Shown here: positions 21,942 to 33,832 of the stretch, piece after piece
Position numbering within the stretch: position 1 is the first letter of the stretch
Layout of the letters: every line of letters starts with the position of its first letter
Assembly: GCA_020630395.1 (NCBI GenBank)
Contig: JAHDBM010000025.1
Coordinates: forward strand, 1 to 40,283
Direction of reading: 5' to 3'
Origin: Flavobacteriales bacterium
GTDB taxonomy: Bacteria; Bacteroidota; Bacteroidia; Flavobacteriales_D; CAJJDF01
DNA: 40,283 nt
Program-made: the position numbers and the translations under genes
The notes under the pieces: generated by a model
What the model was told of the DNA's origin: nothing
Databases searched by the model: none
Seen by the model: only the letters and a program-made list of their open reading frames with translations

Positions 21942-22757
21942 TTAATTAAAACCTTTTCGCTCTTTAATTATTTCGTAAGCCTCTTGTATTTTTTTAAACT
22001 GTTCTTCAGCTTGTTGCTGCTCTATTGGTGTTTTATTTATTTGCTTATCTGGATGATAAAGTTGTACTAGCTTACGGTAAGATTTTTTTATTTCTTCAGT
22101 TGTGGCAGAGTCTTTAAGTTCTAATATGGTAAAATATTTTGAAAGTGATGAACCGGCATATTTTTTAACACTTTGTTGTCTATTCACATCTTCCTCAGTG
22201 TAGTAATTAAACATGGCAAGTAATGAGTTAAAAGCTCTTTGATCTATAGACCATTTGCTTCTAATTGTGTTAATAACATTAAATTCATCCTTCGCTAAAA
22301 ATTTATCTGTTAAAGCAATCCCTACAAGAAAATAAAGCCAATTGATTTCACTTTTTCCAACAAAATAATTTAAACCGGATGAATTAATGTTCTGCTTGAG
22401 TGTCTCTTTTATTTCTGTTAAAACATCATCAAGTTCAACTTCACTATTTAAGTATTCATTAAAAATTTGGAATTGATAACTAGCTTGTGATTTCTTTAAT
22501 TTTTTGTTTAGGTATTGTTTAACATAGTCTATTTCTTTTCTATCAATTTTCCCATCTGCTTTAACTATTATTGCAGCTAATTTTAGCAGGTTGTTGTTAA
22601 TGTTTTTAGTAGTAAATAAATCGTTTTTGGCATGTTTTTTTCTCAACACAAAATAAATAGCTCCAACAATAATCCAAACACCAAAAAAAACCACAGGAAC
22701 TATCCAAAAGCTTTTGTTTTCTTCTTCTTGTATTTGATTAATAATCAATAAAAGCAT
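21942..22757 (-). CDS. DjlA-like TerB/J-domain membrane protein (third copy)
   Basis: A 271-residue protein with one transmembrane helix (about 17-38), a TerB-like helical domain (about 52-190) and a C-terminal J domain (about 205-271) with HPD at 235-237. This is the DjlA order, in which the J domain recruits and stimulates DnaK at the inner membrane. The first acidic TerB motif is intact (IIVKADGKIDRKEI) but the second is altered (ALTDKFLAKDEF instead of ADGEIxxxE). It starts 4 bp after the second copy ends and is the last gene of the run. Its client is unknown; the adjacent protease-barrel fusion is a candidate by context only. Confidence 0.85.
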   Translation of the reverse strand: MLLLIINQIQEEENKSFWIVPVVFFGVWIIVGAIYFVLRKKHAKNDLFTTKNINNNLLKLAAIIVKADGKIDRKEIDYVKQYLNKKLKKSQASYQFQIFNEYLNSEVELDDVLTEIKETLKQNINSSGLNYFVGKSEINWLYFLVGIALTDKFLAKDEFNVINTIRSKWSIDQRAFNSLLAMFNYYTEEDVNRQQSVKKYAGSSLSKYFTILELKDSATTEEIKKSYRKLVQLYHPDKQINKTPIEQQQAEEQFKKIQEAYEIIKERKGFN

Positions 22758-22761
22758 AATT

Positions 22762-23595
22762 CTATTTTAAAGATAATGTATCATGAGCTTCCTGTATTTC
22801 TTGAAAGCGTTTTTTTGCCCATTCTTTGTTGGCTTTTTTTCCAATTTGTTTATCGGGATGATAGCGTTTAGCAAGCTTACGATAAGCACTTTTTATTTCC
22901 TCTAGAGTTGCAGTATTATCTAGCTCTAATATTTTGTAGTATCTGTCTTTACTAGCTGCAGTATATTGTTTAACTGTTTGTTGTTTATTAAGATCTTCTT
23001 CGTTTTGGTAGTTATGTCTTGCTAAGACTGCATCTAATGTTCTGTAGTGTATACCAACATATTTGCAAACCTTTCTTAAAACCGATAATTCTTCAATGGA
23101 TAAAAATTTATCTATGGTAGCTATTCTTATTAGAAAATCGAGTAGTTGAACTTTTCCTTTACCTTTTATTTTTCTTTTTAGCTTTAAGCAGGCCCATTTT
23201 AAACCATGTTTTTTTTGAATAAATAAAGAAATATTCTTGTTAAAGAAGATAATGTTTCTTTTATTAAACTTATCACACAGAGTATTAGTGTATAATTTAT
23301 ACCCTTTGCTTTTAGTGTTATTATCATTTAAAATAGAATGACTAATAATTGCTAAACATTTTCCATTTGTATAGTTTGGCTTGAGAGTTAAGAAGTAGTT
23401 ATCAGTTTCAGTATAAAAATCACTAGGTCTTTTTTTAAAGATTGCTCCTAAAAAAAAGATAATAAATAATGGAATACTATATAAAAGTTTATCAACACCA
23501 TTAAATTCAACTAATAAAACAGCAATTAAATAATAGAGTAAAAGTGTAAAGAGTATAATCAGTTCAATACGATATCTAAAAAGAAATTCTTTCAT
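22762..23595 (-). CDS. DjlA-like TerB/J-domain membrane protein (second copy, degenerate TerB)
   Basis: A 277-residue paralogue of its neighbours. Two closely spaced hydrophobic segments (about 10-30 and 35-50) precede a basic, Cys-containing middle region and a C-terminal J domain (about 213-277) with HPD at 246-248 and YRKLAKRYHPDKQ. In the TerB region both acidic motifs are lost: the KADGK position reads ISHSILNDNN, and the second reads TIDKFLSIEEL. The middle is strongly basic (LKLKRKIKGKGK). Between this gene and the fusion gene upstream lies a 36-bp remnant resembling the end of a J-protein gene. A working J domain is likely; the TerB part has diverged. Confidence 0.8.
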   Translation of the reverse strand: MKEFLFRYRIELIILFTLLLYYLIAVLLVEFNGVDKLLYSIPLFIIFFLGAIFKKRPSDFYTETDNYFLTLKPNYTNGKCLAIISHSILNDNNTKSKGYKLYTNTLCDKFNKRNIIFFNKNISLFIQKKHGLKWACLKLKRKIKGKGKVQLLDFLIRIATIDKFLSIEELSVLRKVCKYVGIHYRTLDAVLARHNYQNEEDLNKQQTVKQYTAASKDRYYKILELDNTATLEEIKSAYRKLAKRYHPDKQIGKKANKEWAKKRFQEIQEAHDTLSLK

Positions 23596-23631: not shown

Positions 23632-23667
23632 TTATTTAATTCCTTTATACGTCTTGTAAATGGTTAT
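23632..23667 (-). pseudogene. Fossil 3' end of a J-domain protein gene
   Basis: Read on the minus strand this 36-bp stretch gives ITIYKTYKGIK and a stop, nearly the last residues of the intact first J-protein copy (TIKTHKGIK, stop at 28214). The final 17 nt (TTATTTAATTCCTTTAT on the plus strand) are identical in both places. No longer reading frame remains. It lies just downstream of the fusion gene, so an extra copy or the edge of a duplication was probably lost here. Confidence 0.55.
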
Positions 23668-23676
23668 GTTTAGTTT

Positions 23677-26600
23677 TTATAGACCAATATCAAATCCAAA
23701 TCGTATGGCGGGTTTAAATGATTGTCCATTCCCAATAGCTCCGGCAAAATCTACTCTAAAAAAATTAAAGATATTTTCTACCCCAAAATACAATTCGTAA
23801 AAACTATTATCTGGATTAATAACAGAGTTAAGTCCAGCAATAGATTGCATATTTAGTTTTCTTATTAAAGGGATTTTATTTAAAATAAATCCATTAAATT
23901 GATGTATAACATGTACTTCTAAGTATTCTCTATTTGTGCTATAATCGAAATACGGAAGCGTTTCGAATGTATTAGCCATTGGTACTAGTAAAAATGTTCT
24001 ATTGCCATTAAAGTGTTTGTAATCCCAAAATTGAATATCATTTGCATTAAAGAATTTACCAACTGTTGTATGGTAAGATAAATTTCCAATTTGCCCTAAC
24101 CTTATTTTTTGTTGAACACTAGCCTTTACTAAATCATAACCCGTTTCTTCATTAGAGATACCAATTCCTTTTGTATACACTGCAGAAATTATAGGAAGCT
24201 TACTTGGTACATTAAATTTATTATCAGGATATAATTCATATTTCTGATTAAATACATATTTTGCGCCAATGCTTATAGTTAATTGATCATGATCAATAGG
24301 ATCTATATTAGATGCTACTGCTGGGTAATTCGATTCATATTCTTTGCTTTTTTTTGTCCAACTAAGGCTAGAGTTATTTTGAAGATATTTTCTAGAAGCA
24401 ATTTCAATATTTGGATAAATAGTTAAACCATTTAGAATTTCACTTTTATAGGAGACTTTAGCATAAGTTTTTTGATTAATTTTCATGTAATTGCTTTTGT
24501 CTAAAAGACTATAATACATATTTAGTGGGCTAAAGTTTAGCGGATCAATAAATTTACCTCCAGAGAATGTAATACTCTCTGATCTCATTTTATTAAGTTG
24601 AACCCTAGCATCCAATTTTGCTCCCCAATTTTGTATTTCAAAACCATATCTTCCCGTACCCTTTACTTGAAAGTATTTTCCTTTTTTATTGAGTTTGGAA
24701 TATCCTAAGCTAAATTGAGAGTTCCAGCCTTCAACAGTATTGTAACTAATCATACCAGGTCTAATAATGCCAATTAGTGGTAATATATCTATCCAAGCTG
24801 AATCGGATTTTAACGTGAATCTTTTTCCTGAAATTAGAAAATTCCCAACTCCATATTTATTATCATTTTTCCTAACAGAATCTTTGTATGCTGGAGATTC
24901 ATATATTGCTTTTAGACTATCTTCTTTGTAATAATTTTTTCGCTCTTCATCAGTTAAAGAAATAGGACGATTATCTTCCCAATAAATGCTGTCCTTTTTA
25001 TTGGCCTCTTTCTTTATACTAAAGACTGCATTAGTAAAAAACTTTTTAGGAAACTCTCTATTTAATTTATAACCATTAAATATCCCAACTGAATTAAAAG
25101 TGGCCCCCATACCAAAAAGATCAATTTTACTGCTCAATTTTAGTGATCTTGGAACCCAAATATTATTAATATCGATATAACTTTGTTTAAAATTAAGGGT
25201 GTCGTAGAATTTAATTTGTGCATCTTTTGTTAGCATTAAATCTACACTGTGTATACTCCAAGTAGAGTCATTTATATACATGAAACCATGAAAAAGAGGG
25301 TCTCCTTTAATTCTTGGTCTAACCTTTATTTTATGAATTTGTTTTCCATTTTCGAATAATGTTCCTTCATAGCTATATCTATAAGTTAATAATGCACTTG
25401 ATGCTATTGGAGATTGAAATAATTTATCTGAAAAATTAGGGAGTTCTATTGAGTTTTTATAAAAATTAAATAATACATCATAGGTTCTATTAAAACTGTA
25501 ACCTTCATTATATCCAGCTACAACAGAAGCTTTCATTTCTTCTTTTATTTTATTAGGAGCTTTATAAAATACTTTCGAAGAGCTTTCTGATAAATAAACG
25601 AGTCCCAAATCAGTTGAATCTGGCATGTCTTCTTTTTTAATAAAGAATGGTTTTTTTTCAGGAAGTTTATCAAAACGAACAGTAGATTTTAAATAAATAT
25701 CCGCTTCATAAGAACTAACTTGTTTTAAGTGAAATTTTCTTTTTGCAATCGCATTTTTAATTATTCCATAAGCAGGATCTTTTGCATTAGCTTTCACCAA
25801 TACTTTATTCAATAGAACATCCTCTGTTTTTAGCGTAATATCAATGGTTTCTTGTTGATAGTTTTTTAAGTTTAGTGTTTTTGTCTTAAAACCAACACTA
25901 GAGAAAACTAACTCTTGAGGCTCATCATTTCTTACTACAAGTGAAAACTGACCATTAAAGTTAGATGCAGTTCCTTTTTGTGTTCCTTTAATGGTAATGT
26001 TTACAAAAGGTACTATCTCTTTGTTTTCGTCATATATAGTTCCAGTTATAGTTTTATAACTTTCTTTGATTCCAAGAGATTTAAATATAAAGGCATATTC
26101 AAAAGCTGTTTCTTTGAGAGCTTTATATCTTCCAGCAGACCCAAAATGACCGCTCTCCATATCTGTTTTGAGAATAAATATATTGGTGTCTGTTTTGTAC
26201 TCCCTCATTTTAGCTGCCCACTTTGTTGGAAGCCAATAAAAAACTCGAGGGTCATTATAGCCAGATAAAACTAACATATTAGGATAATTGGTTTTTCTAA
26301 TGTTTTGATAAGGATCCCATTTTAAAAAAGCACGGTATTGTTCTTCTATTCTGGGATTTCCAACTTCATCAAAATGCGCAATTGTACCAGGCATAGTTGT
26401 ATCTAACTGACCGTTAATTACATCAATATAAGGAACTCCAGGAACTACTGCTTGATATAGATCTGGACGCATGGTTACTATTGCTCCCATTAACATACCT
26501 CCTGCGCTTCTTCCAGTTATGGCTGTTTTAGAAGGTGAAGAGTAACCGTTATTATGTAAAAATTCAGTACACGAAATAAAATCGGTTACGGTATTTATTT

Positions 26601-28149
26601 TCTTTAACATTTTACCTTCATCATGCCATTTTTTACCAAAAAGTGATTCCCCTCTAGGGTGAGCTTGCGCATAAATAAACCCTCTGTCCATTAACATGAT
26701 AGTAGTAGAGCTTAATCCTGGAAATGTGTTTTGTCCATATGATGCATATGCCGTTAAATATAAAGGAGTATTTTCATTAATTTCAATGTCTTTTTTGTAT
26801 GCTATGTCAATAGGAACTTTTGTTCCATCTTTAGATGTACTCCAAATTCGTTTTGACGTATAGTTATCACTATTGTATCCTTTCGTTTTGTATATTCTTA
26901 AAACACTATCTTTTTTTGTTACTAAATCATACTCAAATACAGTAGGGTTTTTTGTATAGCTATCGGTATAATACCTGAACTTTTGTTGTCCATCCTTATA
27001 GTAGTATGTAATTCCTATGTTTTTAAGTTCTCCATCATTTTTTAAGTAATAACTATTCCCATTGTTTCTATTTATTATTTGAATTTGATTTAAGCCTCCT
27101 TCTAATTTATTTATGATAGCATAATCTTTAAACAAGTGATAGCCTTCAACTATGATGCTGTCAGAGGCTGGAATTACAACCTCCCATTGACCTTTTGTTA
27201 ACTCATTAAGTGAGTTTGCAGATAAAATTTTACCGTTTGGCGCATTTTCGTTAGTTTGTATTATAAACTCTCCACCTTTATAATGATCTACTCCATATTG
27301 TATTTCTGAACTTGTAGCTTTAACAAGTTGAAATTCTCCACTTTTATTTTTAATGTACACCTCAGTTTCTAAAAATGAACCAGTAGATATCATTACATAC
27401 TCTTTAGATGTAGATTTATAGATACTTGGGCCAAATTTTGATCTTTTTTCTTCAAATATTAATTTATCAGCTTTTTTAGATCCTAATTTGTGGCTGTATA
27501 TTCGATTTGATTTTTTAGTTTTTACATCTTTTAAAATGTAATAAATAGTTGTGTTGTTTTCATCCCACATAAACTGAGTTACGTTTTCTATTTTATCTTC
27601 TAATAGAGAATCATTTTTGATGTACTTTATAGATAATATGCCTTCTTCGCTTCCTTTAGAATCGACTACATATGCTAGCATTTTATGATTAGGACTTCTA
27701 GATATCCCAATAAGGTTAAAGAAATTATAGTTTGCTGCAAGCTTATTAATGTCGCAATAAACTTCTTCTTTAGCATTTAATGATTTGTATTTTCTACATA
27801 GTATAGAATAGTTTTTCCCTTTTTCACTTCTGCTGTAATAGTAGTAGTCGTCTCTTTTAATAGGAATCGTTTGATCTTGCTCTAGCATCTTATTTTTAAG
27901 CTCACTATATAGCTCGTTTTGAAGCAGTTTAGTGTTACTCATTATGTTTTCAGTATATGCGTTTTCAGCATATAAATAATTAATAAGATTAATATCATTC
28001 TTATTTTTCATCCAATTGTAATAATCAATTAATGTATCTCCATGTAGAAAAGTAGTGTCTACAACTTTTTTAGCCTTTGGGATATCAAAATGTTGAGCAT
28101 AGCAAATGCTAACTAATTGTATTACAGTTAAAAAAAGTGTTTTGTTCAT
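23677..28149 (-). CDS. Oligopeptidase B-like S9A protease fused to CarboxypepD_reg-like/DUF5686 outer-membrane barrel
   Basis: I place the start at 28149, giving 1490 residues with a signal peptide (MNKTLFLTVIQLVSICYA). The frame is open to 28248, but that start would bury the signal and overlap the preceding gene. Residues about 19-697 are oligopeptidase B-like: beta-propeller, then hydrolase with Ser548 (GRSAGG), Asp633 (NDPRV) and His668 (SGHFGSAGR). Their spacings, 85 and 35, equal those of E. coli and trypanosome enzymes. About 700-790 is a carboxypeptidase-regulatory-like beta domain (TGTIYDENKEIVPFVNITIKG). The rest is a DUF5686-type barrel ending FKPAIRFGFDIGL. DUF5686 proteins normally stand alone at about 830 residues, so this is a true fusion placing the protease on the periplasmic side of the outer membrane (inference). 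Confidence 0.88.
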   Translation of the reverse strand: MNKTLFLTVIQLVSICYAQHFDIPKAKKVVDTTFLHGDTLIDYYNWMKNKNDINLINYLYAENAYTENIMSNTKLLQNELYSELKNKMLEQDQTIPIKRDDYYYYSRSEKGKNYSILCRKYKSLNAKEEVYCDINKLAANYNFFNLIGISRSPNHKMLAYVVDSKGSEEGILSIKYIKNDSLLEDKIENVTQFMWDENNTTIYYILKDVKTKKSNRIYSHKLGSKKADKLIFEEKRSKFGPSIYKSTSKEYVMISTGSFLETEVYIKNKSGEFQLVKATSSEIQYGVDHYKGGEFIIQTNENAPNGKILSANSLNELTKGQWEVVIPASDSIIVEGYHLFKDYAIINKLEGGLNQIQIINRNNGNSYYLKNDGELKNIGITYYYKDGQQKFRYYTDSYTKNPTVFEYDLVTKKDSVLRIYKTKGYNSDNYTSKRIWSTSKDGTKVPIDIAYKKDIEINENTPLYLTAYASYGQNTFPGLSSTTIMLMDRGFIYAQAHPRGESLFGKKWHDEGKMLKKINTVTDFISCTEFLHNNGYSSPSKTAITGRSAGGMLMGAIVTMRPDLYQAVVPGVPYIDVINGQLDTTMPGTIAHFDEVGNPRIEEQYRAFLKWDPYQNIRKTNYPNMLVLSGYNDPRVFYWLPTKWAAKMREYKTDTNIFILKTDMESGHFGSAGRYKALKETAFEYAFIFKSLGIKESYKTITGTIYDENKEIVPFVNITIKGTQKGTASNFNGQFSLVVRNDEPQELVFSSVGFKTKTLNLKNYQQETIDITLKTEDVLLNKVLVKANAKDPAYGIIKNAIAKRKFHLKQVSSYEADIYLKSTVRFDKLPEKKPFFIKKEDMPDSTDLGLVYLSESSSKVFYKAPNKIKEEMKASVVAGYNEGYSFNRTYDVLFNFYKNSIELPNFSDKLFQSPIASSALLTYRYSYEGTLFENGKQIHKIKVRPRIKGDPLFHGFMYINDSTWSIHSVDLMLTKDAQIKFYDTLNFKQSYIDINNIWVPRSLKLSSKIDLFGMGATFNSVGIFNGYKLNREFPKKFFTNAVFSIKKEANKKDSIYWEDNRPISLTDEERKNYYKEDSLKAIYESPAYKDSVRKNDNKYGVGNFLISGKRFTLKSDSAWIDILPLIGIIRPGMISYNTVEGWNSQFSLGYSKLNKKGKYFQVKGTGRYGFEIQNWGAKLDARVQLNKMRSESITFSGGKFIDPLNFSPLNMYYSLLDKSNYMKINQKTYAKVSYKSEILNGLTIYPNIEIASRKYLQNNSSLSWTKKSKEYESNYPAVASNIDPIDHDQLTISIGAKYVFNQKYELYPDNKFNVPSKLPIISAVYTKGIGISNEETGYDLVKASVQQKIRLGQIGNLSYHTTVGKFFNANDIQFWDYKHFNGNRTFLLVPMANTFETLPYFDYSTNREYLEVHVIHQFNGFILNKIPLIRKLNMQSIAGLNSVINPDNSFYELYFGVENIFNFFRVDFAGAIGNGQSFKPAIRFGFDIGL

Positions 28150-28213: not shown

Positions 28214-29020
28214 TTATTTAATTCCTTTATGCGTTTTAATGGTTTCATAAGCGTCTTGTACTTTTTGAAACTTTTCTGTTGCTCCTTTTTGAAATTCTGG
28301 TCCTAGTTGAGCAACTTTATCGGGATGATACTTTATAGCAAGTTTTCGGTACGCTTTTTTTACCTCATCATTTGTAGCAGATGAGGAAAGACCAAGTATT
28401 TTGTATGAAGCATCAATTCTACCATGATTAAATTGACCAGTTTGTTCTTGGTAGTTGTTATGGTAATTACCCGATTGATAAAAAAACATAGCCAATATAG
28501 AGTCTAGTGTTCTTTTTGGTATATTAATAGAATGCGCAATTTTTCGAATAACCTGTAGTTCACTTTCGGATATTTCGCCATCTGCATTTGCTATACCTAT
28601 TAAGTATTGAAGTAATAATATTTTTGATGATCCATTTAAACTCTTTTCTATTTCCCAAGATACTTTTTCAACAGAGATATTGGTTTCCAGGTATTTCTTG
28701 AGATTTTTTACATGTGTTTTTGTACTAGCTTCTCCAAATTGTTTAATAAAATAAGACTTGACAAAATTAAGCTCCGATTTCATGGTCTTTCCATCTGCTT
28801 TAATAACGACAGATGATAGCATCATTAAATACCTGCCAAAGTCATGTTGATTCACTGGTCCACTTCTTGAAAACCTTCTTTTATTATTTTTACCAGAGGG
28901 GGAATTTGCAGTATCAAACATGGATCCAATGAAACCACCAATTACTGCACCCGCTATGCTTCCTTTTGTTAAAAAGAATCCAATAATTGCTCCTGCTATT
29001 GATCCAATCCCAATGTTCAT
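28214..29020 (-). CDS. DjlA-like TerB/J-domain protein (first copy, glycine-rich anchor)
   Basis: A 268-residue protein whose first 35 residues are a glycine/alanine-rich hydrophobic hairpin ([13 protein letters not shown], then [17 protein letters not shown]) like a glycine-zipper anchor. A TerB-like domain follows (about 60-180) with both acidic motifs intact ([14 protein letters not shown] and [14 protein letters not shown]), then a C-terminal J domain (about 202-268) with HPD at 232-234. This is the most complete of three paralogues here. Its start codon directly follows the stop of the DUF420 gene with no gap, so it belongs to the cytochrome oxidase transcript. It probably recruits DnaK to a membrane client. 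Confidence 0.87.
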
Positions 29021-29572
29021 TTAGTAAATGTAATAAGGAGATATCATGAGGTAAACAATAACTCCAGAAACTGCTACATATAACCAAAGCGGAAATGTAA
29101 TACGAGTTAATTTTTTATGTTTCTCAATGTCGCCCAACCAACCCCTAAGATAGGTGAAGCAAACAAATGGAGTCACTGATATACTTAATATGATGTGAGA
29201 GATTAATATAGCGTAATAGACATACTTTATAAATCCTTCTCCACCAAATTTAGTTGAATCGCTCGTAATATGATAGGCTACATACATAACTAAAAAAGCA
29301 ACAGATAATATTACCGCTATGTTGATAAACGTTTTGTGCAGCTTTACATTTTTATTTTTAATAGCTATTAATGCTAGTAGTAACACTATTGCAGTAATCC
29401 CATTTGTTGTAGCATATATTGGAGGTAAAAAATGGAGGTTTACTCCCTCAATTTTAATCCCAAATAAGGCAGCAACAGCCAAAGGCAATATAACAGAAAT
29501 GACTACTGCTATTTTTTTGTATTTAGCGTCTTTGTCTTTATCTAGTTTATCTATTTGATCAATTGTATTCAT
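29021..29572 (-). CDS. DUF420 family membrane protein (CtaM-like)
   Basis: A 183-residue protein with five transmembrane segments and the DUF420 histidines: LHFLPP (near 46), LHKTF (near 79), YHITS, SHIILS and the final KHKKLTRITFPLWLYV. In Bacillus and Staphylococcus the DUF420 protein CtaM is needed for function of heme A-containing oxidases, probably in assembly. Here it overlaps the Sco gene by 14 bp inside a cytochrome oxidase operon, supporting the same role. The assembly function is transferred from other phyla. Confidence 0.88.
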   Translation of the reverse strand: MNTIDQIDKLDKDKDAKYKKIAVVISVILPLAVAALFGIKIEGVNLHFLPPIYATTNGITAIVLLLALIAIKNKNVKLHKTFINIAVILSVAFLVMYVAYHITSDSTKFGGEGFIKYVYYAILISHIILSISVTPFVCFTYLRGWLGDIEKHKKLTRITFPLWLYVAVSGVIVYLMISPYYIY

Positions 29573-30176
29573 TAAATAGTATCTTAAGATCTTTAATTAG
29601 TTTATTCACTTCACTCTCACTTGTACCGTCATAGGCACCTCTTACATGTCTGTTTTTATCGATAAGAACAAATTGATCCGAATGTAAAAAACCACCTGGG
29701 GCAAGCACATCTTCTTGTGCTGCTAACATATAGTTAAATACTCCTGATTCGTATATCATCTGCTTATTCCCTGTGACAAAATTCCAGTTTTTGGTATCGA
29801 TATTTTTTTTCTTAATATAGGCTGCTAGCCTTTCAACTGAATCTCTTTCTGGATCAACAGTATGGGTTAATATCTGTATATCGTACATAACATCTGTAAT
29901 TTTTTGCAGCCTCTTTAACTGATCTGTCATGATAGGGCAGATAGATGGACAGCTAGTAAAGAAAAAGCTAACTACAGTAACTTTATTATCTAGATATTCT
30001 TGGGTAATTATTTCGTTATCTTGATTTATAAAAGCAAATTCTTGAACTTGGTGCTCAACAGAATCTTTTGTATCAGGGTTGTATTCTTTTTGTCCTAAAT
30101 AAGGAAGTTTTTCAGAACAACTTTGAGTTAGTAAAAGAATAAGACTACTTAAAGTAGCTAGAAAGAATAAACGCAT
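29559..30176 (-). CDS. SCO1/SenC family copper chaperone lipoprotein
   Basis: A 205-residue thioredoxin-fold protein that delivers copper to the CuA site of cytochrome oxidase or maintains its cysteines. It has a lipobox-like N-terminus (LLLTQSC, Cys20), the CxxxC motif TSCPSIC (Cys76 and Cys80) and the conserved metal His165 in FLHSDQFVLID; DPERDS is also present. All copper ligands are therefore intact. It lies 4 bp downstream of a second Sco-like gene and overlaps the DUF420 gene by 14 bp. Confidence 0.93.
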   Translation of the reverse strand: MRLFFLATLSSLILLLTQSCSEKLPYLGQKEYNPDTKDSVEHQVQEFAFINQDNEIITQEYLDNKVTVVSFFFTSCPSICPIMTDQLKRLQKITDVMYDIQILTHTVDPERDSVERLAAYIKKKNIDTKNWNFVTGNKQMIYESGVFNYMLAAQEDVLAPGGFLHSDQFVLIDKNRHVRGAYDGTSESEVNKLIKDLKILFNEYN

Positions 30177-30180
30177 GTTG

Positions 30181-30858
30181 CTATTTATTTTGAGGTGTTT
30201 TTTCTTTTGATTTGTATTCTCTTTCTAACACCCTAATTTCTTGATTTAATCGCTCAATCTCCATTGATTTGTCTCCTTGATAAATTCCCCTTACGTAGTG
30301 ATCTTTATCAACTAATAAGATCATTTTATAATATGTTTTTCCACCAACAACCACATCCTTTGGATTTTGATCCATTAAGTGAGCTTTTGGCATTTGGAAA
30401 TCATATATTGGATTGGTATTAGCTGTTACAATTTTCCAAAAATCAGCATTTACAGGTTGTTCTTCTGTAAATGCTTTAAGATCCACATTATTCCCAGTTG
30501 TATCTAATAAATGAGATATAATAACGAAATCTTTAAGTCTAGTTTCAGTAGAGATTTTATTGTAAATGAAGTTTCCTAATTGGCTTGATATGATGGGGCA
30601 TTTAGATGGACAAGAAGGGATGAGAGTAGTGATGATGAAAGATTTCCCTTTTAAGGTTTCTTTAGTAACAGCATTACTATCTACATCATAAAATAAGAAA
30701 TCATTTATTTTTTGTTTCCCTGTTTCTGATACTTCTTTGCCATAAAACTTTAGCCCTTGAACATTTGGGTCTCCTTGAGCAAGTATGTATAAAAAAACAA
30801 GAGGGATTCCAAAAAGTAATAAAAATAAGACTATTCTTTTTGTAATCCCTCCTTGCAT
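30181..30858 (-). CDS. Divergent SCO1/SenC-like protein lacking the metal histidine
   Basis: A 225-residue membrane-anchored thioredoxin-fold protein: helix at about 8-27, CxxxC in SCPSKC (Cys83 and Cys87). Compared with its neighbour, the copper-binding histidine is replaced: FLHSDQFVLID aligns with KTYYKMILLVD, putting Tyr176 at the His position, and the DPExDS segment reads DTTGN. It probably acts as a thiol-disulfide reductase or partner in oxidase assembly and not as a copper carrier. The alignment was done by eye; a nearby His could substitute. Confidence 0.82.
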   Translation of the reverse strand: MQGGITKRIVLFLLLFGIPLVFLYILAQGDPNVQGLKFYGKEVSETGKQKINDFLFYDVDSNAVTKETLKGKSFIITTLIPSCPSKCPIISSQLGNFIYNKISTETRLKDFVIISHLLDTTGNNVDLKAFTEEQPVNADFWKIVTANTNPIYDFQMPKAHLMDQNPKDVVVGGKTYYKMILLVDKDHYVRGIYQGDKSMEIERLNQEIRVLEREYKSKEKTPQNK

Positions 30859-30885
30859 GTTAAAGGTGTTATTTCTAATTAAACT

Positions 30886-31248
30886 TTAGTATGTGAATAC
30901 ATTAAATCCTTCATAAAGAAAAAGAAAGATCATGTATGCAATAAAGATAAAATAAGGGTATAAAATATATTTACGTAATGATTTTGTTTCATCACCTAAA
31001 TGCATAAATATTAATACTATATATGCTGCTTTAACAACTGTCATAATAATAAATGACCATTTAACATAAGGCCAAATGCCTGCTGCTCTATCACTTAAAA
31101 ATATACCCATTGCAATTTCAACAGCTGTAATAATAGAGAGTAGAGCTGTTACTTGCCAAATTTTCTTACGAATCTTAACGCCCTGCTCTTCGGTATGGTT
31201 AGCCATTGGAGCATAGCTGTCGTTTACTATTAAATCGTCTCTTTCCAT
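30886..31248 (-). CDS. Cytochrome c oxidase subunit IV family protein
   Basis: A 120-residue protein with three transmembrane helices (about 31-50, 57-80 and 90-118), the size and layout of the prokaryotic subunit IV (CyoD/CtaF-like) group. Motifs include KIRKKIWQVTALLSIITAVEIAMG and YIVLIFMHLGDE. It is a small accessory subunit of the heme-copper oxidase. It follows the subunit III gene by 19 bp. Confidence 0.87.
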   Translation of the reverse strand: MERDDLIVNDSYAPMANHTEEQGVKIRKKIWQVTALLSIITAVEIAMGIFLSDRAAGIWPYVKWSFIIMTVVKAAYIVLIFMHLGDETKSLRKYILYPYFIFIAYMIFLFLYEGFNVFTY

Positions 31249-31267
31249 GATAAATTATTCTAAAAAG

Positions 31268-31945
31268 TTAAACTAGGTAAAAGAATGTAAATACGAATAC
31301 CCAAACTAAATCTACAAAGTGCCAATATAATCCGATTTTTTCAACCATTTCGTAATGACCTCTTTCATGCATGACGCCTTTACGTACTTGCATCCAAATA
31401 ATAATGTTTATGATTACACCAGTAAATACGTGAAATCCATGGAATCCGGTTATGAAAAAGAAGTAATTGGCATATTTAATTTCGGGACTATAAGGGTTAT
31501 TGACAAGTGTTGCCATTTCTCCTTCAGCACCAGAGATAAATGTATACCACTCCCATGCTTGAGAACCTAAGAATATCGCTCCTCCAACTATTGTCCATCC
31601 AAGCCATTTGGTAACACCTTTCTTGTCCATTCTATGTCCTGCTTCAACAGCAAGTACCATGGTAACAGAACTTACAATAAGAATAAAGGTCATTAATGCC
31701 ACATAAATTAGTGGTAAATGGAAACTATGATCTACAAATGGGAAGTGATAAAATACTTCATCAGCTACTGGCCAAGAGTCTGCAGATGCCTTAGCAAACC
31801 CAAGGGCTACTAAAAAACCTCCAAAAGTAAGTGCATCTGATACTAGGAAAAACCACATCATCATTTTTCCGTAAGTTACATTAAATGGTGAGCGTCCACC
31901 TTCCCAAGCTTCTGCTGCGCTAACGTTTTCTACATGTCCTGCCAT
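31268..31945 (-). CDS. Cytochrome c oxidase subunit III
   Basis: A 225-residue subunit III with five transmembrane helices. Typical motifs are GKMMMWFFLVSDALTFGGFL (about 26-45), GSQAWEWYTF (the Q-x-x-EW signature), FFFITGFHGFHVFTGVI (about 161-177) and the C-terminal YWHFVDLVWVFVFTFFYLV. It is the compact, canonical copy of the two cox3 genes here. The catalytic subunits I and II are not in this window. Confidence 0.92.
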   Translation of the reverse strand: MAGHVENVSAAEAWEGGRSPFNVTYGKMMMWFFLVSDALTFGGFLVALGFAKASADSWPVADEVFYHFPFVDHSFHLPLIYVALMTFILIVSSVTMVLAVEAGHRMDKKGVTKWLGWTIVGGAIFLGSQAWEWYTFISGAEGEMATLVNNPYSPEIKYANYFFFITGFHGFHVFTGVIINIIIWMQVRKGVMHERGHYEMVEKIGLYWHFVDLVWVFVFTFFYLV

Positions 31946-31975
31946 AATAGTAATTGAATTATTCTTAGTGCAAGT

Positions 31976-32887
31976 TTAATGAATTAAATATAAAAACAAG
32001 AATAAATAGACCCATAATCCGCCTAGAAAATGCCAAAAATATCCTCCAAGTTTTATTTGTAAATAGTTGTCTTTTGAAAATTTCCCTTGCACTGTTTTGA
32101 AAATCATGAACAAAAGATACAATAATGTGAAGATTACATGTAATAAGTGAGCTACTGTTAATACATAAAAATAAGAAGCACTAACATTACCTTGATCTGC
32201 TAAATCGGCTTCTTGATTTGGGGTTAAATTTGTTTTAGCTAATACAACTGCAACATATTCTGTTTTTAATTTTTTTGTTTTTTTATCTTGAACTTCTCCT
32301 TTTTTTAATTCGATAAGTTTACTGCCAAATACCATTTCTGGTTTTGATTGCGAGTATTCATTATATTCTTCTTCATCAATTTCAATGGCTTTATTACCCA
32401 TGTAATAAAATTGATTGTTTTCGTATGTGAGTTCTTTTCCTCCATAAAATAGTGTAAAATCTTCGCCATATTTTCCTTTAACTTGAAATTCATCTGTATT
32501 TAATGGATTTAAGATGTTATCACTTAGGGTGTATCCTTTTTCATAAATCTCTCCCCAGCCTTTATACTGAAAAAAGCCAAAAAGTAGTCCTAGAACAAGA
32601 GTTGCGATTAAAAAAATACTGGATTGACTTGAATTATTCTGTTTAATGGCTCTAACTGCAAGAATCATGGTTATAGAACTAATGGCAATAGTTATAGTAC
32701 TATAAATTAAAGACGGAGGCAATTGAAGTGATACCCAAAATCCATCACCTCTTGATACTACAAAGGCACTTGTTAAACCTGCAAAAAACATCACTACAGT
32801 AAATACACCAAACCATAATAATGTGGTTTTTGCTTTTGCTCTAGCTTTCTCGTAAATTTTATTTTCGTGATTTAAATCTCTCTCCAT
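31976..32887 (-). CDS. Cytochrome c oxidase subunit III, long paralogue
   Basis: A 303-residue subunit III relative. Five helices are visible. Motifs at both ends are conserved: WFGVFTVVMFFAGLTSAFVVSRGDGFW at the front; ASYFYVLTVAHLLHVIF and GGYFWHFLGGLWVYLFLFLYLIH at the end. Between FQYKGWGEIYEKG (about 110) and SASYFYV (about 232) lies a charged loop of about 120 residues, where the short copy has about 20. Loop function is unknown. It is encoded between the heme O synthase gene (15-bp gap) and the short cox3 (30-bp gap). Confidence 0.87.
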   Translation of the reverse strand: MERDLNHENKIYEKARAKAKTTLLWFGVFTVVMFFAGLTSAFVVSRGDGFWVSLQLPPSLIYSTITIAISSITMILAVRAIKQNNSSQSSIFLIATLVLGLLFGFFQYKGWGEIYEKGYTLSDNILNPLNTDEFQVKGKYGEDFTLFYGGKELTYENNQFYYMGNKAIEIDEEEYNEYSQSKPEMVFGSKLIELKKGEVQDKKTKKLKTEYVAVVLAKTNLTPNQEADLADQGNVSASYFYVLTVAHLLHVIFTLLYLLFMIFKTVQGKFSKDNYLQIKLGGYFWHFLGGLWVYLFLFLYLIH

Positions 32888-32902
32888 TTGTGATTCAATT
32901 TT

Positions 32903-33832
32903 CTATAGCATTTTCATGATCCATACATCCAAAAAATAGAACAAGAATACTAATGGTAAATATGAAAAAGAGGCAAACATAAGTTTAACAGCATCTTCAT
33001 CTTTACATGATTTATATAGTGCAATAGCAGGTCTTAAAAAATAAAACCCCATAATTGTAACGAGTACCATAGAAACCCAACTTGTCATTCCAAATGCCCA
33101 AGGTAACATTCCTGCAGGTATGATAAACATGGTGTAAAACAGAATAATGAAAGCAGTTCTTTTACCCGTTTCTTGTCCATAAGGAAGCATTTTATATCCA
33201 CCTTTTTTATAATCTTCAGCTCCTTTCCAAGCAATAGCCCAAAAGTGAGGAAATTGCCAAACAAATTGAACAAAAAATAAAATACCAGGCTCTAATCCAA
33301 AGCTGCCACTACCTGCAACATATCCAATCATAGGAGGGATACTACCTGGAAATGCCCCAACAAAAACCGATAAAGGAGTGATTTTTTTTAATGGGGTATA
33401 GATAAAAGCATAAGATAGTAATGCTATTAGTCCAAGAACAAAAGCGGTCATGTTTATTGCATACAACAAATACAGTCCTAGTGCACCAATTATAACAGAG
33501 AAAATAATAGCTTCTAAAACCCCCATGCGCTTTGCTGCTAGTGGTCTGTTTTTGGTTCTTTCCATTAAAGCATCTGAATCTTTTTCAATAATTTGATTGA
33601 GTGCATTAGATGATCCCGTAACTAAAAAACCGCCTATTATGATGTATAAGAAAGTAGTCCAATCAAATTTGTTTAATCCAAGGTCTTTGGGGTCTAAAAG
33701 AGCAATTCCATATCCTAAACCAGCAGAATAAACGACTAGAGATGCTAATCTTAGCTTAGCTAACATGGCATAGTCCTTTAATCTTTGCTTAAAAGAATAA
33801 GAAGTTTTTATGGATATATCTTTTGAACTCAT
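32903..33832 (-). CDS. cyoE: Protoheme IX farnesyltransferase (heme O synthase)
   Basis: A 309-residue UbiA-type prenyltransferase with about nine transmembrane helices. It adds a farnesyl group to heme B to make heme O for the oxidase. The first Asp-rich motif is NQIIEKDSDALMERTKNRPL (about 81-100) and the second is AWKGAEDYKKGGYKMLP (about 201-217). It is also called ctaB in oxidase operons. It is the first gene of the oxidase run, with a perfect -7 element 38 nt upstream. Confidence 0.93.
   Translation of the reverse strand: MSSKDISIKTSYSFKQRLKDYAMLAKLRLASLVVYSAGLGYGIALLDPKDLGLNKFDWTTFLYIIIGGFLVTGSSNALNQIIEKDSDALMERTKNRPLAAKRMGVLEAIIFSVIIGALGLYLLYAINMTAFVLGLIALLSYAFIYTPLKKITPLSVFVGAFPGSIPPMIGYVAGSGSFGLEPGILFFVQFVWQFPHFWAIAWKGAEDYKKGGYKMLPYGQETGKRTAFIILFYTMFIIPAGMLPWAFGMTSWVSMVLVTIMGFYFLRPAIALYKSCKDEDAVKLMFASFSYLPLVFLFYFLDVWIMKML

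Follow-up and report, generated by a model that had tools for sequence, protein, structure and literature searches.

In a 40,283-nucleotide stretch of DNA from a Flavobacteriales bacterium (assembly GCA_020630395.1, contig JAHDBM010000025.1, positions 1 to 40,283), referred to below as the window, one gene joins an exported oligopeptidase B (OpB)-like peptidase of family S9A to a CarboxypepD_reg-like domain and a complete DUF5686 domain that is predicted to end in an outer-membrane barrel. This architecture is rare, patchily distributed and real. We favour, with moderate confidence, the interpretation that the product is an oligopeptidase of the periplasm, held by its barrel and laid out in the same way as PlpD, the patatin-Omp85 protein of Pseudomonas aeruginosa.

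The first-pass annotation of this DNA had placed the gene correctly at 23677-28149, leaving its strand unstated; it lies on the minus strand, running without an internal stop from an ATG at 28149 to a stop codon ending at 23677 (Table 1). An alternative in-frame ATG at 28248 would run into the neighbouring djlA-like gene (28214-29020); the start at 28149 is compatible with the signal peptide. Pfam analysis upholds the order of parts proposed in that annotation, namely signal peptide, complete S9A enzyme, CarboxypepD_reg-like domain and full DUF5686 in a single uninterrupted frame, with the DUF5686 profile matched from end to end (1-669 of 669). No stop or frameshift is present at the junction (about 26050-26075), where either would have left two ordinary genes, and independent genomes make the join at the same place. 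The base composition of the gene is ordinary (GC 29.8%, GC at third codon positions 20.1%, both inside the range of the neighbours), and a comparison with those neighbours gave no sign of foreign composition.

The same architecture is found in at least 13 further species, giving 14 known here with the window: eight in family f9, three in f15, one in f17, and Aureibacter tunicatorum, all with 33-42% identity. A sample of 399 genomes from the order contained eight others with the join (f9/g57 and f9/g59) and the class sample contributed four more (three f15, one f17), while a strict threshold applied to 395 genomes of the phylum recovered the window alone. The f9 fused contigs recur in genome_contigs as named freshwater metagenome-assembled genomes (MAGs) when scanned by alignment (eight fused loci; the species names on several of these records look unreliable); a direct single-protein scan of genome_contigs returned nothing. 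Four homologues are cut by contig ends, G326, G350 and G675 being truncated and G327 lacking its N terminus, and one (G382) carries an internal TAG. The isolate A. tunicatorum NBRC 107587 carries the fused gene on a complete 615-kb plasmid; it is 33% identical across 98% of the length, and its sole annotation is "DUF5686 family protein". It is vanishingly improbable that an error of sequencing or assembly has merged two ordinary genes. Although the draft genome of the window is fragmented (138 contigs), the join recurs in many independent assemblies and on the complete plasmid of an isolate, the DUF5686 half has no second signal peptide, and the fused gene is the sole OpB-like gene found in its genome, with no free OpB elsewhere.

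The enzyme half is closest in sequence (residues 20-689) to the solved structures of Serratia OpB (7zjz/7ywp; E about 1e-129), and OpB structures rank above prolyl oligopeptidases. The Ser-Asp-His triad (S548, D633 and H668) has the spacing of 85 and 35 residues noted earlier and is kept in all 14 fused proteins (13 aligned plus Aureibacter), and the enzyme half is therefore under selection. The S1 pocket is altered: the glutamate corresponding to Glu576 of Salmonella OpB is replaced by His592, a register verified on the Serratia sequence by counting from its active-site serine, Ser532. In the Trypanosoma brucei enzyme, P1 specificity and the preference for Arg or Lys are essentially defined by this glutamate alone (Glu607; PMC3778648). 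Position 592 is His in 11 of the 14 fused proteins (the window, nine others derived from MAGs, and Aureibacter) and Glu in the three from f15; of the 61 standalone enzymes, 59 have Glu there. Glu595, which corresponds to a residue important for stability in trypanosome OpB, is kept in the 13 aligned fused proteins and lost in Aureibacter. The P1 specificity of the fused enzyme is thus probably no longer strictly Arg/Lys, and since the S1 glutamate has been replaced "OpB-like" is a better name for the enzyme than "oligopeptidase B". The NCBIfam OpB equivalog NF007511 agrees, as the enzyme scores 445 bits, far under the cut-off of 1313. The earlier name holds for fold, triad and spacing, and is not supported in its trypsin-like sense.

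All 13 fused proteins with a readable start have a hydrophobic leader that ends in (A/S)-Q, and by eye no lipobox precedes this Gln. The pattern fits the Q-rule of Bacteroidetes, by which cleavage by signal peptidase I leaves an N-terminal Gln, later converted to pyroglutamate (PMC10653852), and the signal peptide supports the prediction that the protein is exported. Among 61 standalone OpB homologues, most of them from Bacteroidota, 42 have a lipobox-like N terminus by a rough rule, a count that is approximate as the same rule wrongly called 2 of 11 fused proteins. With about two-thirds of the compared standalone homologues looking lipoprotein-like, the statement that OpB is normally a free enzyme is not supported here; our reading is that membrane tethering is the usual state of the OpB-type enzyme in Bacteroidota and that in the fused protein the barrel probably takes over from the lipid anchor.

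By sequence, the DUF5686 part matches no solved structure except over its CarboxypepD_reg portion, which resembles the N-terminal extensions of SusC, RagA and TonB receptors and, in the model, superposes on that of SusC (9hfj) with a template modelling score (TMt) of 0.88. CarboxypepD_reg domains of the SusC/RagA type sit on the periplasmic side. An AlphaFold2 model of residues 691-1490, built from nine sequences, was poor, with a mean predicted local distance difference test score (pLDDT) of 45.7; the top Foldseek matches of its C-terminal strands are members of the Omp85 superfamily (BamA, TamA; best E 6e-7), and VIA-align also ranks this superfamily first (Z 16.3). Residues 1115-1490 modelled alone gave a better result (mean pLDDT 60.7) with 16 strands, for which all 50 Foldseek matches listed are Omp85 proteins (best E 1.5e-7) and VIA-align reaches a Z of up to 17.0 over 298 residues, the nearest folds being BamA, TamA and Sam50. 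Pfam returned no match to PF01103 (Omp85) in the fused protein and none to POTRA, whose place is occupied by CarboxypepD_reg, and a search of viral_contigs for relatives that might deepen the alignment found none. We consider the C-terminal barrel to be probably Omp85-like. The outer-membrane barrel proposed in the first-pass annotation stands as a prediction; its description as a channel is not supported, given the Omp85-like model, as barrels of the Omp85 class are not known to serve as general peptide channels.

A second link between this family and peptidases comes from its nearest standalone members, which are often followed by the genes of a secreted M16 pair. At 5 of 22 standalone DUF5686 loci (L143, L145, L146, L148 and L150, from families f53, f32 and f49) two M16 peptidase genes in the same orientation come immediately after DUF5686, the gaps measuring 7 to 103 bp; at L144 such a pair lies 1.2 kb away, and at L158 an M16 gene adjoining DUF5686 was not counted, having no obvious signal peptide. 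The HxxEH active-site motif is encoded by the first gene of the pairs, usually together with a clear signal peptide, and is missing from the second; one partner with the motif and one without is the split-clamshell layout of M16 heterodimers. No M16 gene lies directly beside a fused gene, the sole match near one being about 5.6 kb off (L163), and none is matched within the window, so that the layout of a TonB-dependent receptor with an adjacent M16 protease is not found at the fused gene. Because two unrelated types of peptidase are linked to one barrel family, the one through operons and the other through fusion, the DUF5686 family is likely to be functionally tied to peptidases, and the earlier idea of a barrel family working with peptidases is strengthened by these operons.

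Two other arrangements were seen in this comparison. A gene for a DUF4159 protein lies closely upstream of DUF5686 at f53 loci (L143, 3151-3894; similar in L144, L145, L151 and L159). In family f4 the architecture is reversed, proteins of about 1200 residues starting with CarboxypepD_reg, continuing through about 365 residues without a Pfam match and ending in a complete OpB-like S9A enzyme (L174, 2742-6344, minus strand; L175, 1609-5217, plus strand; also G038:C23).

From the fusion, its conservation, the triad and the export signal, all read directly in the sequences, we propose a topology, an activity and a substrate. Sec would export the protein, signal peptidase I would cleave it before Gln19, and its C-terminal Omp85-like DUF5686 barrel would insert into the outer membrane, with the CarboxypepD_reg domain on the periplasmic face. 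The S9A propeller-hydrolase would be suspended from this domain in the periplasm, cutting short peptides, and the barrel, in lieu of a lipid anchor, would keep it at one outer-membrane site. We infer, reasonably in our view, that the enzyme lies on the periplasmic side, which is also where the enzyme domain of PlpD remains (PMC11116518). The earlier picture of a membrane-tethered enzyme under an outer-membrane channel, processing peptides as they pass, is supported for the true fusion, the export and the predicted barrel, and not for the channel. Several observations weigh against our interpretation: both barrel models are low in mean confidence; OpdO, a porin outside the Omp85 superfamily, reaches a Z of 14.8 with the barrel model; profile-profile comparison of the barrel with local BamA barrels showed no similarity; the central part of DUF5686, roughly residues 780-1110, yielded no model that would place the enzyme relative to the barrel; and most Bacteroidota lack the fusion.

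A bolder version, which we regard as doubtful, makes DUF5686 an undescribed Omp85-like branch that would in general host periplasmic oligopeptidases at the outer membrane, with an M16 heterodimer by operon in some lineages or an S9A enzyme by fusion here, as a peptide-processing gate in which passage or release would be coupled to cleavage. The import-coupled peptidase of the first-pass annotation, in which peptides enter through the barrel, by itself or together with partners, and are trimmed by the enzyme on entry, also draws on the secreted M16 pairs beside standalone relatives, and systems of receptor and periplasmic M16 protease are known in FusA/FusC and YddB/PqqL (PMC6793856). It appears unlikely, as the model is Omp85-like and not that of a TonB-dependent receptor or a porin, and no uptake genes are conserved beside the fused genes.

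Since the barrel model falls within the superfamily whose TpsB members translocate proteins, the barrel might instead help the peptidase to cross the outer membrane for surface display or release, as in an autotransporter. A folded 75-kDa propeller-hydrolase would however be a poor passenger, and the periplasmic position of SusC/RagA-type CarboxypepD_reg domains also makes this quite unlikely. PlpD itself was first described as autotransporter-like (PMC4104836), but newer work puts its enzyme in the periplasm (PMC11116518).

Very unlikely, finally, is a role in envelope quality control, in which the barrel assists the assembly of outer-membrane proteins or lipids while the peptidase clears peptides released there. 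The predicted Omp85-like fold, the link of the family to unrelated peptidases and the general preference of oligopeptidases for short products of other proteases would all suit such a role, but the patchy distribution of the fusion speaks against a core assembly function. We retain the barrel-anchored periplasmic oligopeptidase as the best explanation.

In a tree of DUF5686 domains, those of the fused proteins group together with support of 99/99, only standalone proteins of f2 and f7 falling inside and the 18 other standalone relatives outside; the Aureibacter half also falls into this group (support 98). Constraining the group to fused proteins alone was rejected by the approximately unbiased (AU) test (0.009), and the enzyme half thus appears to have been lost later in f2. 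The OpB tree has its best likelihood when the fused halves are held together, better than the free tree (AU 0.646); the enzyme half of Aureibacter is too divergent to be placed in it. The simplest reading of both trees is one old fusion, after which some lineages lost the enzyme half and others lost or transferred the gene. Several independent fusions were considered and are not needed by the tree of either half.

At the locus itself, the two djlA-like genes that flank the fused gene are adjacent, about 38 bp apart, in G001, a sister genome from the genus of the window, and two further members of the family lack the fused gene while conserving the order of the genes that lead up to and include the upstream djlA-like one. 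The 3' end of this upstream gene is repeated directly downstream of the fused gene (Table 1), with a repeat score equalled in 2 of 400 Markov shuffles, and the sequence beyond the second copy resembles the G001 spacer, G001 having no OpB among the matches listed. Such a repeat is what would remain if the fused gene had inserted at that 3' end, which makes recent gain likelier than loss; the fused gene was probably gained here, though a comparison of two genomes of one genus cannot settle the matter. No comparable direct repeats were found flanking other fused genes, and no conserved operon partner was seen among the fused loci. In its surroundings, three TerB-DnaJ (DjlA-like) paralogues are clustered, two after the fused gene (21942-22757 and 22762-23595) and one before it, and gene order is conserved in G001, G004 and G005 across the block 28214-33832, which spans the gene at 32903-33832, two SCO1-like genes (29559-30858) and the upstream djlA-like gene. 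A gene that by eye resembles a DEAD-box helicase stands directly upstream of the fused gene in two distant families, at L163 (4449-5876; f17) and L171 (4149-5405; f9), perhaps as a relic of an ancestral location.

Table 1. Positions of the fused gene, its parts and its flanking elements in the window
Feature	Residues	Position	Strand	Basis or remark
Whole fused gene (OpB-like S9A peptidase, CarboxypepD_reg, DUF5686)	1-1490	23677..28149	minus	1490 aa
Signal peptide	1-18	28096..28149	minus	predicted cleavage between YA and QHF; Gln at +1; no lipobox
Peptidase_S9_N beta-propeller	25-417	26899..28077	minus	Pfam, 250 bits
Peptidase_S9 catalytic alpha/beta-hydrolase	480-693	26071..26712	minus	Pfam
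Catalytic serine	S548	26506-26508	minus
His in place of S1 glutamate	H592	26374..26376	minus	alignment
Catalytic aspartate	D633	26251-26253	minus
Catalytic histidine	H668	26146-26148	minus
Junction of peptidase and CarboxypepD_reg	694-700	26050..26070	minus	Pfam borders; join identical in homologues
CarboxypepD_reg-like domain (CarbopepD_reg_2)	701-785	25795..26049	minus	Pfam; matches SusC/RagA/TonB-dependent receptor N-terminal extensions
DUF5686 (PF18939)	796-1457	23779..25764	minus	663.9 bits, curated cut-off 39.2
Predicted 16-stranded barrel, nearest Omp85 fold	about 1130-1486	23692..24762	minus	models, mean pLDDT 45.7 and 60.7
djlA-like TerB-DnaJ gene, upstream		28214..29020	minus	flank of inferred insertion
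djlA-like TerB-DnaJ gene, downstream		22762..23595	minus	adjoins the upstream one in sister genome G001
Direct repeat, copy 1		28214..28244	minus	3' end of upstream djlA-like gene
Direct repeat, copy 2		23632..23665	minus	directly downstream of fused gene; 31/34 columns, one 3-base gap

DUF5686 is matched in most of the Bacteroidota genomes searched, and a literature search that left most subscription journals outside its reach returned no mention of it; on OpB fusions in the outer membranes of Bacteroidetes it gave only a general classification paper. The fusion acts as a Rosetta-stone clue that, together with the M16 operons, points the family toward the breakdown of peptides in the periplasm and opens its function to direct tests. 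Because this rare combination recurs in other Bacteroidota species, it suggests that DUF5686 barrels cooperate with peptide-degrading enzymes. It would also place a peptidase among the few enzymes known to be built onto Omp85-like barrels: Heinz and Lithgow list patatin, metallo and WD40 N termini for Omp85 proteins, and the passages found in their paper name no S9 peptidase (PMC4104836).

Among known systems, PlpD shares with the fused protein an N-terminal hydrolase and, as far as the prediction for the fused protein goes, a C-terminal 16-strand Omp85-type barrel in a single chain. The likeness is confined to layout, with no patatin or POTRA match that would place the protein in type Vd; here the enzyme is a peptidase rather than a lipase, CarboxypepD_reg and an uncharacterised middle stand in place of POTRA, and the kinship of the barrel comes from a low-confidence model. 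The protease-associated import systems FusA/FusC and YddB/PqqL likewise link an outer-membrane barrel genetically to a periplasmic peptidase, but they consist of separate proteins, a TonB-dependent receptor and an M16 protease, and only the standalone DUF5686 loci are similar. The standalone DUF5686 (PF18939) proteins examined have the same full-length domain preceded by CarboxypepD_reg, with their own signal peptide and, unlike the fused protein, no enzyme domain. With OpB itself (Serratia 7zjz/7ywp, T. brucei 4bp8) the enzyme shares propeller, alpha/beta-hydrolase, triad and spacing, and it differs in its S1 histidine, its sub-cut-off NCBIfam score, its predicted export and its fusion to a barrel. 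The lipoprotein-like OpB enzymes of Bacteroidota have the same peptidase fold and, like the fused protein, are apparently membrane-anchored; they keep the S1 glutamate and use a lipid anchor, which the fused oligopeptidase has apparently exchanged for a barrel.

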